Below, in pieces: positions 13,418 to 29,778 of a stretch of DNA of 64,000 nt. Under the pieces are notes generated by a model. It was not told the DNA's origin. It worked only from the letters and a program-made list of their open reading frames with translations, and ran no database searches. Position numbers and translations under genes: made by a program. This DNA is from Leucobacter chromiireducens (lineage in GTDB: Bacteria > Actinomycetota > Actinomycetes > Actinomycetales > Microbacteriaceae), in the NCBI RefSeq assembly GCF_003917135.1, contig NZ_RPDI01000002.1:62001-126000 (forward strand), read 5' to 3'. Numbering within the stretch: position 1 is the stretch's first letter; every line of letters starts with the position of its first letter.

Positions 13418-14626
13418 TCACGCCCCGCGCAGGCGCTCCGCGACGAAGTCCACGTCCTTGTCGCCGCGCCCCGACAGGTTCGCGATGATCACCGCGTCGG
13501 CGGGCAGCGTCGGCGCCAGCTTGATCGCGTGCGCGATGGCGTGCGCCGACTCGAGCGCAGGGATGATCCCCTCGGTGCGGGTGAGTAGCTGGAACGCGGC
13601 GAGCGTCTCCGCGTCCGTCGCGGTCACGTACTCCGCGCGGCCGAGCTTCTCGAGGTGTGCGTGCTGCGGGCCCACGCCCGGGTAGTCGATCCCGGATGCG
13701 ATCGAGTGCACGGGGGAGGGCTCACCGTTCGCGTCCTGCAGCACCTTCGTGTGCATGCCGTGCAGCATGCCGGGCGTGCCGAGCGTCATGGTCGCCGCGT
13801 GGCGATCCCCATCGAGGCCCTCGCCGGCCGGCTCCACCCCGATGATGCGCACGGACTCGTCCTCCAGGAAAGCATCGAACAGTCCCATCGCGTTGGATCC
13901 GCCACCCACCGCGGCGACGAGCACGTCGGGGAGCTTGCCCTCCGCGTCGAGCACCTGGGCCCGAGCTTCGCGCCCAACGACCGACTGGAAGTCGCGCACC
14001 ATCGACGGGTACGGGTGCGGCCCGACCACCGAGCCGATGGCGAAGAAGTAGTCCTCTGGCTGCGCCGCGTAGACGGCGAACGCCGAGTCGACGGCCTCCT
14101 TGAGGGTCTTTCCGCCCGCCTCGACCGACACGACCTTCGCGCCGAGCAGCTCCATGCGCACCACATTGGGGTGCTGCTTCGCAACGTCGATGGCGCCCAT
14201 GTGGATCTCGCACTCGAGCCCAACGAGCGCGGCGGCGGTGGCGAGCGCCACGCCGTGCTGGCCGGCCCCCGTCTCCGCGATCAGCTTCGTCTTGCCCATG
14301 CGCTTCGCGAGCAGCGCTTCGCCGAGGCAGTGGTTGATCTTGTGCGCGCCCGTGTGGTTCAGGTCCTCGCGTTTCAGGTACACCTTCGCGCCCCCGAGCT
14401 CGCGGGTGAGGTTCTCGGCGAAGTACAGCAGCGACGGGCGGCCAACATACTTCGAGAGCAACGCCTGGTACTCCTGCTGGAACGCGGGATCCGCGCTCGC
14501 TTCGGCGTACGCGCGCGCCACCTCGGCGATGGGCTCCACCAGGAACGGGGGCAGCGGGGCGCCGCCGAACTCACCGAAGAAGCCGGCCTCGTCGGCGCGG
14601 TAGGGGGAAGACGTGGTCTGTGTCAT
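13418..14626 (-). CDS. trpB: Tryptophan synthase beta chain, stand-alone second copy
   Basis: A 402-residue PLP enzyme that condenses indole with serine. The PLP lysine is Lys96 in HTGAHKIN, the catalytic Glu is in [10 protein letters not shown], the phosphate loop is GGGSNAMG and the C-terminal block is [11 protein letters not shown]. It differs clearly from the operon TrpB at 27713, which has HTGSHKIN, so it is not a recent duplicate. No trpA is adjacent. It sits behind a leader peptide with tandem Trp codons and an intrinsic terminator, so its expression should rise when charged tRNA-Trp is scarce. The start at 14626 (MTQTTSS) lies beyond the terminator; a longer frame would begin inside the terminator. 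It may scavenge indole or act as a low-Trp reserve enzyme. Confidence 0.9.
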
Positions 14627-14670
14627 GGGAGGGATCCTTTGCGTCGTTGCGCCGCTCGTGAGACAAAAAA

Positions 14671-14693
14671 ACACCGCCTCCGAGAGGCGGTGT
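14671..14693 (-). terminator. Attenuator terminator hairpin
   Basis: A perfect 10-bp stem with a 3-nt loop (plus-strand arms 14671-14680 and 14684-14693), followed on the minus strand by seven Ts (14671-14665). Confidence 0.92.
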
Positions 14694-14726
14694 CGTGTGC
14701 ATGCAGATGCGTGAAGAGTGACCGCC

Positions 14727-14759
14727 CTAGGCGGCCCACCACTGAATCACGATGTGCAT
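14727..14759 (-). CDS. trpL: trp leader peptide [10 protein letters not shown]
   Basis: Ten codons plus TAG, with two consecutive UGG codons at positions 7-8, just before the attenuator stem. The start codon is six bases after a TACACT -10 element, so the leader would be translated from a leaderless transcript. The stop codon lies in the loop between regions 1 and 2, the position expected for a classical trp leader. Confidence 0.88.
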
Positions 14760-14833
14760 GGGGCGAGTGTAGCACCATCTGAACGCCGCGAGCCGGCGCG
14801 GGCGTTCGGCTGATGCTCGCCCCGCGAAGGTGC

Positions 14834-24039: not shown

Positions 24040-24060
24040 CTGGCGGGGCGGGGTGCGGTG

Positions 24061-24158
24061 CGGCTTGCGGTGCGGGTCGGCTTGCGGTGCGGGTCGGCTT
24101 GCGGTGCGGGTCGGCTTGCGGTGCGGGTCGGCTTGCGGTGCGGGTCGGCTTGCGGTGC
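24061..24158 (+). repeat. 17-bp tandem repeat array (five copies plus a partial sixth)
   Basis: The unit CGGCTTGCGGTGCGGGT is repeated perfectly at 24061, 24078, 24095, 24112 and 24129, followed by a partial copy from 24146. There are no spacers, so it is not a CRISPR. Copy number is likely to vary between strains. Confidence 0.92.
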
Positions 24159-24160
24159 AC

Positions 24161-24220
24161 ACTCTCATTTAGTTGGGGTTTGGACCGGATACCTTCCCAG
24201 ATTCCGGATCACACTCGCAC
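24161..24220 (+). repeat. Dispersed CTCATTTAGTGAGG element, copy 3
   Basis: Head ACTCTCATTTAGTTGGGG, middle TTTGGACCGGATACC, tail TTCCGGATCACACTCGCACC. It is preceded by GGTGCAC, shared with copy 4. Confidence 0.78.
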
Positions 24221-24315
24221 CAAAGCTGCGGCGGGCGCGGTTCCTGTGTCCCCGGGGTGCGACCTCTGTGTGGTTCCGGTGCTGGCGGGGAGCGGTGGGG
24301 TCGCTGACCGGTGCA

Positions 24316-24375
24316 CACTCTCACTAAGTGAGGGGTATGGGCAGAACGGCCCCCGGATTGTGGTGCAGAGTTCAA
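24316..24375 (+). repeat. Dispersed CTCATTTAGTGAGG element, copy 4 (degenerate)
   Basis: Head ACTCTCACTAAGTGAGGGG preceded by GGTGCAC as in copy 3. The middle and tail are diverged, but CCCCGGATTGTGGTGCAGAG keeps the CCGGAT core spacing. Confidence 0.5.
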
Positions 24376-24384
24376 CTTAGTGCC

Positions 24385-24460
24385 CGGGCTGGTGGCCCGG
24401 GGCTGGTGGGCGCGGGGGCTTGGTGGCGCGGGGGCTGGTGGGGGCGGGTGCTGGTGCGCC
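24385..24460 (+). repeat. G-rich imperfect repeat before trpE
   Basis: GGCTGGTGG-type units recur with runs of three to five Gs (GGTGGCCCGGGGCTGGTGGG, GCGGGGGCTTGGTGGCGCGG and so on). It could form G-quadruplexes on the coding strand, directly upstream of the trpE promoter. Confidence 0.6.
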
Positions 24461-24487: not shown

Positions 24488-24502
24488 TAGGCTGGGCGGG
24501 TG
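24488..24502 (+). promoter_or_regulatory. -10 element (TAGGCT) of a leaderless trpE promoter
   Basis: TAGGCT, six bases, then the GTG at 24500. A leaderless start leaves no room for a leader-peptide attenuator in front of trpE. Confidence 0.62.
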
Positions 24503-26083
24503 ACCCTGACGACCACGCGCGCAGCGTTCGACGCCGCGCGATCCACCCACGCCGTGATCCCCGTCTGCCGGGAGGTGTTCGCGGACGCCGACACCCCGGT
24601 GAGCATCTACCGCAAGGTGGCTGACTCGCGGCCCGGCACGTTCCTCCTCGAATCCGCCGAGCAGGGCGGGGTGTGGACCCGGTTCAGCTTCGTCGGTGCC
24701 GGCAGCTTCGGCGTGCTCGGCGAGCGCGACGGCAAAGCGCACTGGGCGCCAGCACCGGGCGGATCCGTCACGCAGGAGCGGCTGCTCCCTGGCGGCGTCG
24801 CCGGGCTCGCCCCGGTCGAAGCGCTCCGCGCGACGTACGAGCGCTGGCGCGCCCCTCAAGTGCCCGGCCTCCCACCGCTCGCGAGCGGCTTCGTCGGCTA
24901 CCTCGGCTGGGAGACCGTCCGCCAGTTTGAGAAGCTCGAGCACGGCCCGAGCGAGGGTCCCGGGCTACCGACGCAGGGGCTGAGCTTCGTCTCCGAGCTC
25001 GTGGTGATCGATCACCGCGAGGGGAGCGTCGTGCTCCTCGCCAACGTGCTGAACGACGGAGCGCTTGAGCCAGAATCCGCAGCGCCAGGATCCCCAGCAG
25101 CTGATGCCGACGCCCAGTGGGCCGACGCGCAGGCGCGCCTCGACGCGCTGCAGGCGGCGCTCGCGCGCCCCGTCGGATCGCCGCTCGGCACCTTCGATCG
25201 CGACGCGCAGCCGGCCCCGCGCCGTCTGACGAGCACGCCCGAGTTCCTCCGCGCCGTTGAGGTCGCACAGCGCCACATCGTGGACGGCGACATCTTCCAG
25301 GTGGTGCCGTCGCAGCGCTTCGATCAGGAGTGCACCGCGGATCCGCTCGATGTGTACCGCGTGCTCCGCCACCTGAACCCGAGCCCGTACCTCTACCTGC
25401 TGCAGCTCGAGGACACTGAGGGTACGCCGTTCGCCGTCGTGGGCTCGAGCCCCGAGGCGCTCGTCACCGTGCAGGAGAGCGGTCACGTGATGACCCACCC
25501 GATCGCGGGATCGCGGCCGCGCGGCGCCTCCGTCGAGGAGGATCAGCAGCACGAGCGCGATCTCCTCGCCGACGAGAAGGAGCGCGCCGAGCACCTCATG
25601 CTCGTCGACCTCGCGCGGAACGATCTGCTGCGCGCCTGTGAGCCGGCCTCGGTCGAGGTGACCGAGTTCATGCGCATTGAGCGCTTCAGCCACATCATGC
25701 ACATCGTCTCGACGGTGGAGGGCAAGGTGCGCGAGGGGCAGAGCCCCATCGACGTGTTCCAGGCGACGTTCCCAGCAGGCACGCTCTCCGGCGCGCCGAA
25801 GCCGCGCGCGCTCGAGATTATCGACGCGCTGGAACCCGTGCAGCGCGGCGTGTACGGCGGCGTGGTCGGCTACTTCGGCCTCGGCGGCGCGGCGGACCTC
25901 GCGATCGCGATCCGCACCGCAACGATCAAGGACGGCATCGCGATGGTGCAGGCCGGCGCCGGGATCGTCGCGGACTCGGTGCCCGAGTCCGAAGACGCCG
26001 AGTGCCGCAGCAAGGCCGCGGCGCCCCTGCGCGCGATCGCGATCGCCAACACGCTGCACGAACTGAAGGAGTCCGCACGATGA
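24500..26083 (+). CDS. trpE: Anthranilate synthase component I
   Basis: A 527-residue chorismate-using enzyme that with TrpG makes anthranilate. The feedback-inhibition site is visible at FLLESAEQGGVWTRFSF near residue 50. The C-terminal chorismate-binding domain has GDIFQVVPSQRF, MTHPIAGSRPRG, DLARNDLLRACEPASV, FSHIMHIVSTVEG, FPAGTLSGAPKPRALEII and GGVVGYFGLGG. trpG and trpD are absent here. It heads a cluster running to trpA; the next gene overlaps by ATGA. The GTG start is supported by TAGGCT six bases upstream. Confidence 0.96.
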   Translation: MTLTTTRAAFDAARSTHAVIPVCREVFADADTPVSIYRKVADSRPGTFLLESAEQGGVWTRFSFVGAGSFGVLGERDGKAHWAPAPGGSVTQERLLPGGVAGLAPVEALRATYERWRAPQVPGLPPLASGFVGYLGWETVRQFEKLEHGPSEGPGLPTQGLSFVSELVVIDHREGSVVLLANVLNDGALEPESAAPGSPAADADAQWADAQARLDALQAALARPVGSPLGTFDRDAQPAPRRLTSTPEFLRAVEVAQRHIVDGDIFQVVPSQRFDQECTADPLDVYRVLRHLNPSPYLYLLQLEDTEGTPFAVVGSSPEALVTVQESGHVMTHPIAGSRPRGASVEEDQQHERDLLADEKERAEHLMLVDLARNDLLRACEPASVEVTEFMRIERFSHIMHIVSTVEGKVREGQSPIDVFQATFPAGTLSGAPKPRALEIIDALEPVQRGVYGGVVGYFGLGGAADLAIAIRTATIKDGIAMVQAGAGIVADSVPESEDAECRSKAAAPLRAIAIANTLHELKESAR

Positions 26084-27712: not shown

Positions 27713-28984
27713 ATGACAGATCACCCCGCAGCCGCGACGACGCCAGCCGGGGCCGAGCCGGACTCCGTGACGAGCCTGCGCGAGCAGCACGGCCCGTTCT
27801 TCGGCAAGTTCGGCGGACGCTTCATGCCCGAGTCGCTCATCGCGGCGATCGACGAGCTGACGGAGGCGTACGTCGACGCGCAGGCTGATCCGGCCTTCCG
27901 CGCCGAGCTTGTCGAGCTGCTCCAGAGCTACGCCGGTCGGCCCTCGCCGATCACCGAGGTGCCGCGGTTCGCCGCGCACGCCGGGGGCGCGCGGATCTTT
28001 CTGAAGCGCGAGGACCTGAACCACACGGGCTCGCACAAGATCAACAACGTGCTCGGTCAGGCGCTGCTCACGAAGCGCCTCGGCAAGCAGCGCGTGATCG
28101 CGGAGACCGGCGCTGGCCAGCACGGCGTCGCGACCGCGACCGCCGCCGCGCTCTTCGGCCTGGAGTGCACGGTCTACATGGGCGAGGTCGACACGGAGCG
28201 GCAGGCGCTCAACGTGGCACGCATGCGGCTGCTCGGCGCCGAGGTGATCCCGGTCACGACCGGATCCCGCACGCTGAAGGACGCGATCAACGAGGCGTAC
28301 CGCGACTGGGTGGCAACGGTGGATCGCACGAACTACATCTTCGGAACGGCCGCGGGCCCGCACCCGTTCCCCGCGATGGTGCGCGACTTCCAGAAGATCA
28401 TCTCGGAGGAGGCGCGCGCCCAGCTCCTGGAGCGCGAGGGGCGCCTGCCCGACGCGGTCGTCGCCTGCGTGGGCGGCGGCTCGAACGCGATCGGCATGTT
28501 CGACGCGTACCTCGATGACGCCGACGTTGCGATCTACGGCGTCGAGGCCGCAGGCGACGGCGTGGACACCGAGCGTCACGCCGCGTCGATCGAGCGCGGC
28601 CGCCCGGGGATCCTGCACGGCGCGAAGACCTACGTGCTGCAGGACACGGACGGGCAGACTATCGAGTCGCACTCCATCTCGGCCGGCCTCGACTACCCGG
28701 GGGTCGGACCGGAACACGCCTGGCTGTCCGACATCGGCCGCGTGAGCTACATTCCCGCGACCGACGACGAGGCGATGCAGGCACTCCGCCTGCTCAGCCA
28801 GACCGAGGGCATCATCCCGGCGATCGAGTCGGCGCACGCGCTCGCTGGGGCGCTGCGCATCGCGCGGGATCTCGGCCCAGAGCAGATCGTGATGGTGAGC
28901 CTCTCCGGTCGCGGCGACAAGGACATGGCAACGGCTGGCCGGTACTTCGGCCTGCTCGACGGCGCAGCGGGAGCAGAGGGATGA
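27713..28984 (+). CDS. trpB: Tryptophan synthase beta chain (operon copy)
   Basis: A 423-residue PLP enzyme that forms tryptophan from serine and indole channelled from TrpA. The PLP lysine is Lys109 in [39 protein letters not shown] and [11 protein letters not shown] mark the other active-site loops. A 25-residue N-terminal extension precedes the canonical start ([16 protein letters not shown]). It overlaps trpA by four bases, so the alpha2beta2 partners are made together, unlike the other trpB at 13418. Confidence 0.97.
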
Positions 28985-29778
28985 GCGGGACCGAGTCTCA
29001 GGTCGAGCGCGCGATTCGCGCGGCGAAGGCGGAGCGAGCAGGCGCGCTGATCGGCTACCTGCCGGTCGGCTTCCCCGACCTCGACACGAGCGTCGCCGCA
29101 GCGATCGAGATGGCGAACTCAGGCGCCGACGTGCTCGAGCTCGGCCTCCCGTACTCGGACCCCGTGATGGACGGCCTCGTCATCCAGGAGGCCACCCAGA
29201 CCGCGCTCGCCGGCGGGTTCCGCGTCGCGCACGTCTTCGAGGCGGTGCGCCGGGTGCGCGAAGCGGTCGACGTTCCCGTGCTCGTGATGACGTACTGGAA
29301 CCCCGTGCTGCAGTACGGGGTCGAGCGCTTCGCCACCGACCTCGCGGCTGCCGGCGGCGCCGGCCTCATCACCCCGGACATCACGCCGGACGCGGCGGCC
29401 GAGTGGATCGCGATCTCGGAGCGTGTCGGCCTCGATCGCGTATTCCTCGCCGCGCCCAGTTCGAGCGACGCGCGCCTCACGCTCGTCGCCGAGTCGAGCA
29501 CCGGCTTCGTCTACACCGTCTCCACGATGGGGATCACGGGCGAGCGCGCCGAACTCGACGCGGCCGCACGCGGCCTCACCGCGCGCCTTCGCGCGCAGGG
29601 CGCTGAGCTCGCCTGCGTGGGGATCGGGATCTCGACCGCCGCGCAGGTGGCCGGCGCGCTCGAGTACGCGGACGGCGCGATCGTCGGCACCGCGTTCGTG
29701 CGTGCGCTGCGCGACGGCGGCGTGCCGCAGCTCGGCGAAACCGTGCGAGCAATCGCTGCGGGAACCGCGCCGCGCTAG
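28981..29778 (+). CDS. trpA: Tryptophan synthase alpha chain
   Basis: A 265-residue TIM barrel cleaving indole-3-glycerol phosphate to indole. The catalytic Glu lies in [16 protein letters not shown], together with the Asp of YSDP. Further blocks: [43 protein letters not shown] and [11 protein letters not shown] for phosphate binding. It begins by ATGA overlap with trpB and closes the trp cluster; about 90 bp separate it from lgt. Confidence 0.96.

Follow-up and report, generated by a model that had tools for sequence, protein, structure and literature searches.

Why would a bacterium whose trp operon already contains a trpB hold a second trpB elsewhere, and what decides when this copy is expressed? 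The question is raised by a 64-kb stretch of Leucobacter chromiireducens DNA (the whole of which we call the window). Upstream of its second, stand-alone trpB, the minus-strand span 14771-14665 is a predicted ribosome-mediated Trp attenuator (Table 1). The explanation that fits the locus best, and which quite probably holds, is that this attenuator gates the stand-alone TrpB for starvation-controlled indole salvage; taken separately, the attenuation mechanism is very likely and the indole salvage likely. The parts of the attenuator, their geometry, their conservation and their association with a lone trpB can be read off the sequence itself.

Table 1. Parts of the predicted attenuator, the stand-alone trpB and the trp operon in the window
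Feature	Position	Strand	Basis or remark
-10 box TACACT (in TGCTACACT)	14766..14771	-	6 nt upstream of leader ATG
Leader peptide, 10 codons	14727..14759	-	ORF reading and conservation
Tandem Trp codons (TGG TGG), codons 7 and 8	14736..14741	-	ORF reading and leader alignment
Outer stem, 5' strand, over leader start	14747..14759	-	partner 14701-14714
Outer stem, 3' strand	14701..14714	-	partner 14747-14759
Segment 1	14730..14743	-	pairing with segment 2 (14726-14715)
Segment 2	14715..14726	-	pairs with segment 1, or by its first 6 nt with segment 3 (antiterminator)
Segment 3, 5' arm of terminator	14684..14694	-	folding
Segment 4 (14680-14670) and T7 run (14671-14665)	14665..14680	-	folding
trpB ribosome-binding site AAAGGA	14635..14640	-	by reading
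Stand-alone trpB, 402 aa, TrpB1 type, monocistronic by position	13418..14626	-	profile and tree
trpE -10 TAGGCT	24488..24493	+	6 nt before GTG start, leaderless type
trpE of trp operon	24500..26083	+	de novo trp operon
Operon trpB, adjoins trpA	27713..28984	+	de novo trp operon
trpA	28981..29778	+	de novo trp operon

Anatomy of the attenuator

A leader with tandem Trp codons does precede the second trpB, as the initial annotation had claimed, and its start lies 133 nt from that of the gene. The annotation had also described three pairings and a 10-bp terminator with a T run. Pairings 1:2 (14743-14730 with 14726-14715), 2:3 (14726-14721 with 14691-14686) and 3:4 are all present, as are the seven Ts, and pairings 1:2 and 2:3 compete for segment 2; the terminator stem, on the other hand, is 11 bp long (arms 14694-14684 and 14680-14670, outermost pair G.U, 3-nt loop). 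Two further parts had gone unmentioned, namely a -10 box, 6-7 nt upstream of the leader, and an outer stem spanning the leader start. At the gathering score of Rfam release 15 no attenuator family matched the 64-kb window, the only hits being two tRNAs. Between terminator and trpB, at 14635-14657, a GAGTGGCGCAATGAAGCAAAGGA-like stretch common to many Leucobacter loci extends beyond the ribosome-binding site.

The spacing of the -10 box predicts a leaderless leader mRNA, starting at or near 14759. TANNNT stands 6-7 nt before the leader ATG in 32/32 actinobacterial rows, which are not all independent and in which the box-bearing ATG was counted where several were in frame, compared with 10 among 1180 ATGs in the window; a Shine-Dalgarno-like string is also present in 2 of the 32. 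In Patescibacteria the motif lies at exactly 6 nt in 6/11 leaders versus 56/1612 control ATGs. Leaderless leader peptides have already been reported from mapped starts in Streptomyces lividans (PMC8079986) and C. glutamicum (PMC11857589), so a leaderless leader here is expected rather than new. In those reports the mRNAs of TrpL1 (MFAHSTRNWWWTAHPAAH) and IlvL likewise start 0-1 nt from the start codon, the difference being that their starts were mapped whereas the Leucobacter one is predicted from the -10 spacing alone. The first hairpin of C. glutamicum ilvBNC is moreover said to shield the translation start (PMC11857589), much like the outer stem here.

Folding and ribosome position

Folding of the 171-nt region gives -65.7 kcal/mol (z -2.21), a value that 8/200 shuffles match. 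When pairings of the window sequence (row L004) are set against their own shuffles, 2:3 reaches p ~0.02-0.03, 1:2 taken in this sequence alone is not beyond chance (p 0.09), and the outer stem is matched by 0/200 shuffles. Both-sided base changes occur in 6/14 consensus pairs, every one of them in the terminator. Because segment 2 is misplaced by MAFFT, pairings 1:2 and 2:3 were scored per sequence and not by covariation. At p 0.05, and with the reservation that related rows are not independent, 1:2 is better than shuffles in 23/30 actinobacteria (segment 2 taken after the stop), the antiterminator in 24/31 actinobacteria and 9/11 Patescibacteria; the outer stem is better than shuffles in 19/39 likewise non-independent rows, all of them actinobacterial. 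Unlike the segment 2 that follows the stop, that of most Patescibacteria sits within the leader ORF. For these pairing statistics, terminators were assigned by hand in L091, L094 and L013, and L068 has none by rule.

We also folded the nascent leader with the ribosome-covered stretch held single-stranded, using assumed footprints. Pairing 2:3 retains 8-9 pairs with cover up to nt 33, 7 at nt 34, 3 at nt 36 and 0 from nt 38, and under the assumed footprint the cover would reach ~nt 33 with codon 7 in the A site, ~nt 36 with codon 8 and ~nt 45 at the stop. A stall at codon 7 leaves 7-9 pairs of 2:3 and one at codon 8 only 3, which by this estimate makes codon 7 the effective Trp codon. With no ribosome, 1:2 and the outer stem merge into one composite hairpin of -25.0 kcal/mol in which the start codon is also paired. 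At equilibrium the terminator is present in every ribosome state, and antitermination must consequently be kinetic.

The following course of events would accommodate these features, with the transcription start and the response to Trp-tRNA being steps that we infer. RNA polymerase would start at or adjoining the leader AUG. With plentiful Trp-tRNA the ribosome would reach the stop and cover segment 2, leaving the 3:4 terminator to form and trpB off; with scarce Trp-tRNA it would stall at the Trp codons, mainly the first of them (codon 7), allowing 2:3 to pair and trpB to be transcribed. If no ribosome is present, 1:2 and the outer stem would form, and termination would again be the default. 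The stand-alone TrpB would then make Trp from free indole and serine, and the de novo operon (trpE...CBA) would be driven from its own leaderless-type promoter, at which no attenuator was detected.

Conservation in Leucobacter and the trp operon

Conservation was followed in 40 genomes including that of the window, 25 from the genus and 15 from other families. The second TrpB (at least 84% identity) occurs in 18/25 genus genomes and in 0/15 of the others; one of the seven genus genomes without it is only 72% complete. The WW leader is kept by 17/18 copies, and the Trp codon pair is invariant across the 17 aligned leaders, which were picked for having it. In the exception, G005 (L009), segments 2-4 and trpB are kept and other sequence replaces the leader start and Trp codons. 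Relatives with the same trpB and no conserved leader Trp codons and stems, which the initial annotation had named as evidence against attenuation, are thus not what 17/18 Leucobacter copies present, G005 excepted.

A search of 54 Leucobacter genomes with a leader pattern gave 28 matches in 25 genomes, compared with a single match for the reversed control pattern. A WW leader ORF accompanies 21 of them, and 21/21 of these precede a stand-alone trpB, the TrpB match beginning 108-155 nt downstream; the pattern misses variants in five more known copies (L015-L017, L020, L021). The remaining 7/28 have no leader ORF, and an attenuator of the same kind elsewhere in the genus is rejected on this ground. 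A stricter pattern, which does not match the window's own leader, gave four matches in 394 genomes of the class, three without a stop codon in the WW frame and one before a gene reading as trpS. TrpB matches at E 1e-152 were confined to 2/394 class genomes, the window's own and G228, and no attenuator was detected before the close TrpB relative in G228 (L144). Two irregular copies were also seen: the lone trpB of L199 (G044) is spread over two frames (TrpB matches 1630-2259 and 2235-2804), by frameshift or assembly error, and a Leucobacter without the second TrpB carries, besides its operon copy, a partial TrpB-like match (G015:C1:450300-450992, 52%, one internal TGA).

The operon presents a different picture. 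TANNNT lies 6-7 nt before the trpE GTG in 30/30 Leucobacter loci (30 fetched, 54 genomes searched), and the detector described below found an attenuator upstream of trpE in 0/30; at the trpE of the window none was detected. This agrees with the earlier view of a leaderless-type trpE promoter without attenuation, and the 21/21 leader-bearing matches at the lone gene in 54 genomes, set against 0/30 trpE loci, support the annotation's view that attenuation is confined to the reserve trpB. The absence of an attenuator does not mean that trpE is unregulated. As a feedback-inhibited first enzyme of the pathway, TrpE can restrain de novo flux; a lone TrpB working on free indole would have no such brake. 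In the gap before trpE in the window (24060-24400), GGCTTGCGGTGCGGGTC recurs in short tandem repeats and an element CACACTCTCA is repeated.

Occurrence beyond Leucobacter

Relatives of the second TrpB were taken as the best 80 of 561 from a scan of named genomes. Our detector looked for a WW leader with a terminator 15-130 nt after it, the antiterminator being scored and not required; L078 and L134 offered it just 153 and 70 nt of upstream sequence. Across 104 upstream regions in five groups it found 27 attenuators, compared with 0/2,080 shuffles. Four of the groups come from the best 80 of 561. They comprise the Leucobacter group (11/12, one of the 12 being a MAG titled only Actinomycetota), other actinobacteria (7/14), relatives labelled Patescibacteria (5/8, three of the eight titled just 'uncultured bacterium') and the remaining, mostly proteobacterial relatives (0/46). 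The fifth consists of TrpB loci from a sample of 379 Patescibacteria genomes (4/24). The seven other actinobacteria with an attenuator are Zimmermannella alba, Boudabousia, Gleimia, Micrococcus lylae, Brachybacterium and two MAGs; among the seven in which none was detected is Timonella, which lies inside the Leucobacter branch. WW leaders were recognised by eye in L091, L094 and L151 as well, and the region upstream of L155 showed no attenuator. The initial annotation's description of the arrangement as unusual thus needs qualifying, in that it is conserved in Leucobacter and recurs in other actinobacteria and in Patescibacteria.

A covariance search among relatives, as the annotation had proposed, succeeded in part. 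Model R1, built from actinobacteria only and run over 96 sources, finds the window by construction; its further hits at E <= 0.003 were L221, L148 (0.0004), L102 (0.0009) and L149 (0.003). With L148 and L149 it reached beyond the actinobacteria, finding 2/12 Patescibacteria loci with WW leaders, but it missed the other 10/12. The L221 match (1501-1958), from an 8.6-Mb actinobacterium, is an attenuator of the same type before a gene reading as trpS; that of L102 (2805-2925), an Austwickia relative, is attenuator-like with a single Trp codon (MFADLSWRAT*). Another small ORF, xFKxHCTExW[RQ], is conserved upstream of trpB in L088, L092, L094, L146 and L147, its third-base changes being synonymous. 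It lies 3' of the terminator where there is one, persists in L146, a locus without a detected WW leader, and is perhaps a second Trp-reading leader peptide.

The stand-alone TrpB and its possible partners

The second TrpB is clearly diverged from the operon copy, as had been stated, with 54% identity, and its nearest named relative among the listed matches is from L. chromiireducens (96%). It scores 566 bits against TIGR00263 (TrpB1; cut-off 392) and 162 against TIGR01415 (TrpB2-like; cut-off 519), and on the latter score a TrpB2-type enzyme is rejected. Its neighbours in the window are agcS and an fmt-like gene. The absence of an adjacent trpA, noted earlier for the window, extends to the best 80 of 561 relatives, whose flanks (up to 3 kb a side, shorter in 15/80) gave no match to TrpA, TrpE or TrpC; as a control, the same TrpA query found an adjacent TrpA at 32/32 operon loci, Proteobacteria included.

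A quick maximum-likelihood tree covers 112 of the 137 TrpBs; six rows of the Leucobacter group had been dropped beforehand and, starting at L103, every other row except L109 and L120; L144, L145 and L155 had been left out of the TrpB set. The window TrpB falls in a clade of 64 (SH-aLRT 98) together with the 55 relatives kept from the best 80 of 561 and 8 sampled Patescibacteria. The clade contains 0/33 TrpA-adjacent copies (adjacency checked at 32 loci and the window operon). It splits into a mostly proteobacterial part without labelled attenuators and a weakly supported (87) Actinobacteria-Patescibacteria part in which 24/34 are labelled attenuated (21 by detector, 3 by eye); the by-eye labels are L068, L091 and L094, L151 being unlabelled despite its WW leader. 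An attenuated Patescibacteria row, L152, is basal. Attenuator presence needs eight changes on this tree, which means that both gain and loss have to be reckoned with.

The 86 lone TrpBs differ from the 33 operon TrpBs at 21 diagnostic positions. Among these, clade-specific positions 99, 100 and 103 fall just after the lysine of HKIN, which we take to be the PLP lysine. The motif SGRGDKD is intact, as is another motif. The best solved-structure match is the ancestral LBCA-TrpB (5ey5), and six residues (Res6: E36, E42, T53, S187, A279, M280) have been tied to the stand-alone activity of LBCA-like TrpB in the part of PMC11917138 that treats them. At these sites, with a numbering offset of 2 that we deduced, the window TrpB has A, Q, S, S, M and H. 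Res6 as an explanation of stand-alone activity is rejected on this 1/6 agreement; the sole residue kept, S199, is among the 21 separating positions.

Could the second TrpB nevertheless work with TrpA? With the attenuator acting as described, it might serve as a beta subunit induced by starvation and join the operon TrpA in a different synthase complex. Leucobacter itself encodes TrpA, so such pairing is possible, and a TrpA is encoded in 24/34 tested genomes with relatives (from the best 80 of 561, no Leucobacter among them); the intact SGRGDKD and the other motif are also compatible with it. We regard it as unlikely, given that 10/34 genomes gave no TrpA match, that none lies in the flanks searched around the best 80 of 561 relatives, and that Met-His occupies the LBCA alpha-beta interface positions 279-280. 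The Patescibacteria weigh further against it: among 23 sampled genomes with TrpB, 15 have TrpA over the cut-off, and the 8 without (L146-L152 and L156; one, G730, has a short TrpA match below the cut-off) are those whose TrpB lies inside the clade of 64, the TrpBs of the other 15 all lying outside.

Still less probable is a PLP enzyme that makes no Trp and couples serine with a different nucleophile (an analogue of indole or Trp), the attenuator tuning it to Trp supply. The 21 clade-specific positions, with the three close to the HKIN lysine, would suit such a change of substrate; the TrpB equivalog score (566 versus 392), the Trp codons of the leader, which imply Trp as the product, and the adjacency of the gene to trpR and/or trpS in several Patescibacteria speak against it. 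A last reading takes the hairpin for a plain terminator that follows a fortuitous WW ORF, and the commonness of terminator-like hairpins and the chance-level 1:2 of the window sequence lend it something. It is refuted, as far as sequence can do so, by the conservation of leader, spacing and segments across genera and the 0/2,080 shuffles passing the detector, and since the upstream fmt-like gene diverges, no neighbouring transcript needs ending there.

The relatives also bear on indole salvage by the stand-alone TrpB. TrpC gave a match in 0/13 Patescibacteria tested (3 of them labelled Patescibacteria in this analysis) and in 6/6 actinobacteria, two of which lack TrpA; these two, an Actinomycetaceae MAG (L086, G079) and Gleimia coleocanis (L120, G100), may therefore reflect gaps or a different route. 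As many of the Patescibacteria genomes are MAGs, absence of a gene in them is not proof; in one size fraction of a groundwater survey, the portion of it relevant here gives trpA in 15% and trpB in 18% of Patescibacteria MAGs (PMC8672522). The attenuated gene lies near trpR (Pfam) in the Patescibacteria L085, L091 and L101, and near trpS in L091 and L101 (Pfam class I W/Y synthetase) and, by sequence reading alone, in L148, L149 and L152. In L091 and L101, CTAG palindromes that we take to resemble the TrpR operator consensus lie where the leader begins. Tryptophanase gave no match in 53/54 Leucobacter genomes and a single match below the cut-off, so that any indole would be of external origin or the result of leakage. 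Together, the TrpA and TrpC absences, the trpR and trpS neighbours and the lack of tryptophanase favour the use of outside indole. We infer indole as the substrate, and an outside source for it, from this pattern, and the role is strengthened by relatives for which neither TrpA nor TrpC was detected.

Discussion

Attenuation, leaderless leaders and lone trpB genes are each already known. The Trp attenuators of Actinobacteria, as outlined by Seliverstov et al. 2005 (PMC1262725), have a short leader with tandem UGG, a GC-rich terminator with poly-U and a competing antiterminator, a plan that the Leucobacter one shares. Those in that account control the trp operon or trpS, whereas here the target is a monocistronic trpB, and none was detected at the organism's own trpE. 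In C. diphtheriae trpB1EDGC (PMC1262725, PMC5784534), trpB likewise stands first after a Trp leader (MTNMNAHNWWWRA); it heads an operon with trpEDGC, unlike the lone Leucobacter gene, and we liken the two by gene arrangement, not by clade. A trpB outside the trp operon, as here, is described for non-operon TrpB1 (species type i1_o1, PMC1854888) and for the orphan trpB of Mycoplasma californicum (PMC4081997), for which use of exogenous indole was proposed; neither description, in the sections devoted to these genes, mentions an attenuator, and the likeness is again one of description, not of clade. As reported in PMC11085991, Bifidobacterium TrpB makes Trp from external indole and serine, as tested with a trpB mutant; it is part of a chimeric polypeptide with TrpC and not a lone gene. 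A limited search of the open-access (PMC) literature found no description of an attenuator before a lone trpB, nor of ribosome-mediated attenuation in Patescibacteria.

It is evenly balanced, in our estimate, whether the lone TrpB and its Trp attenuator form a mobile indole-salvage module common to Actinobacteria and Patescibacteria. Where the latter have neither TrpA nor TrpC, this module can sit with trpR and trpS, and these minimal genomes may place Trp synthesis from the indole of a host or neighbour under dual control, by TrpR and attenuation. If this reading is true, ribosome-mediated attenuation would operate in Patescibacteria, a phylum for which the limited search found no report of it. 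The TrpB subfamily without adjacent trpA, with its 21 diagnostic positions, would be useful to enzyme work, and the combination may allow indole-dependent bacteria to be recognised from sequence, among them uncultured Patescibacteria, where amino-acid dependence is in question. For Leucobacter, the control logic would be that the salvage enzyme alone, and not the de novo operon, is wired by attenuation to Trp starvation.
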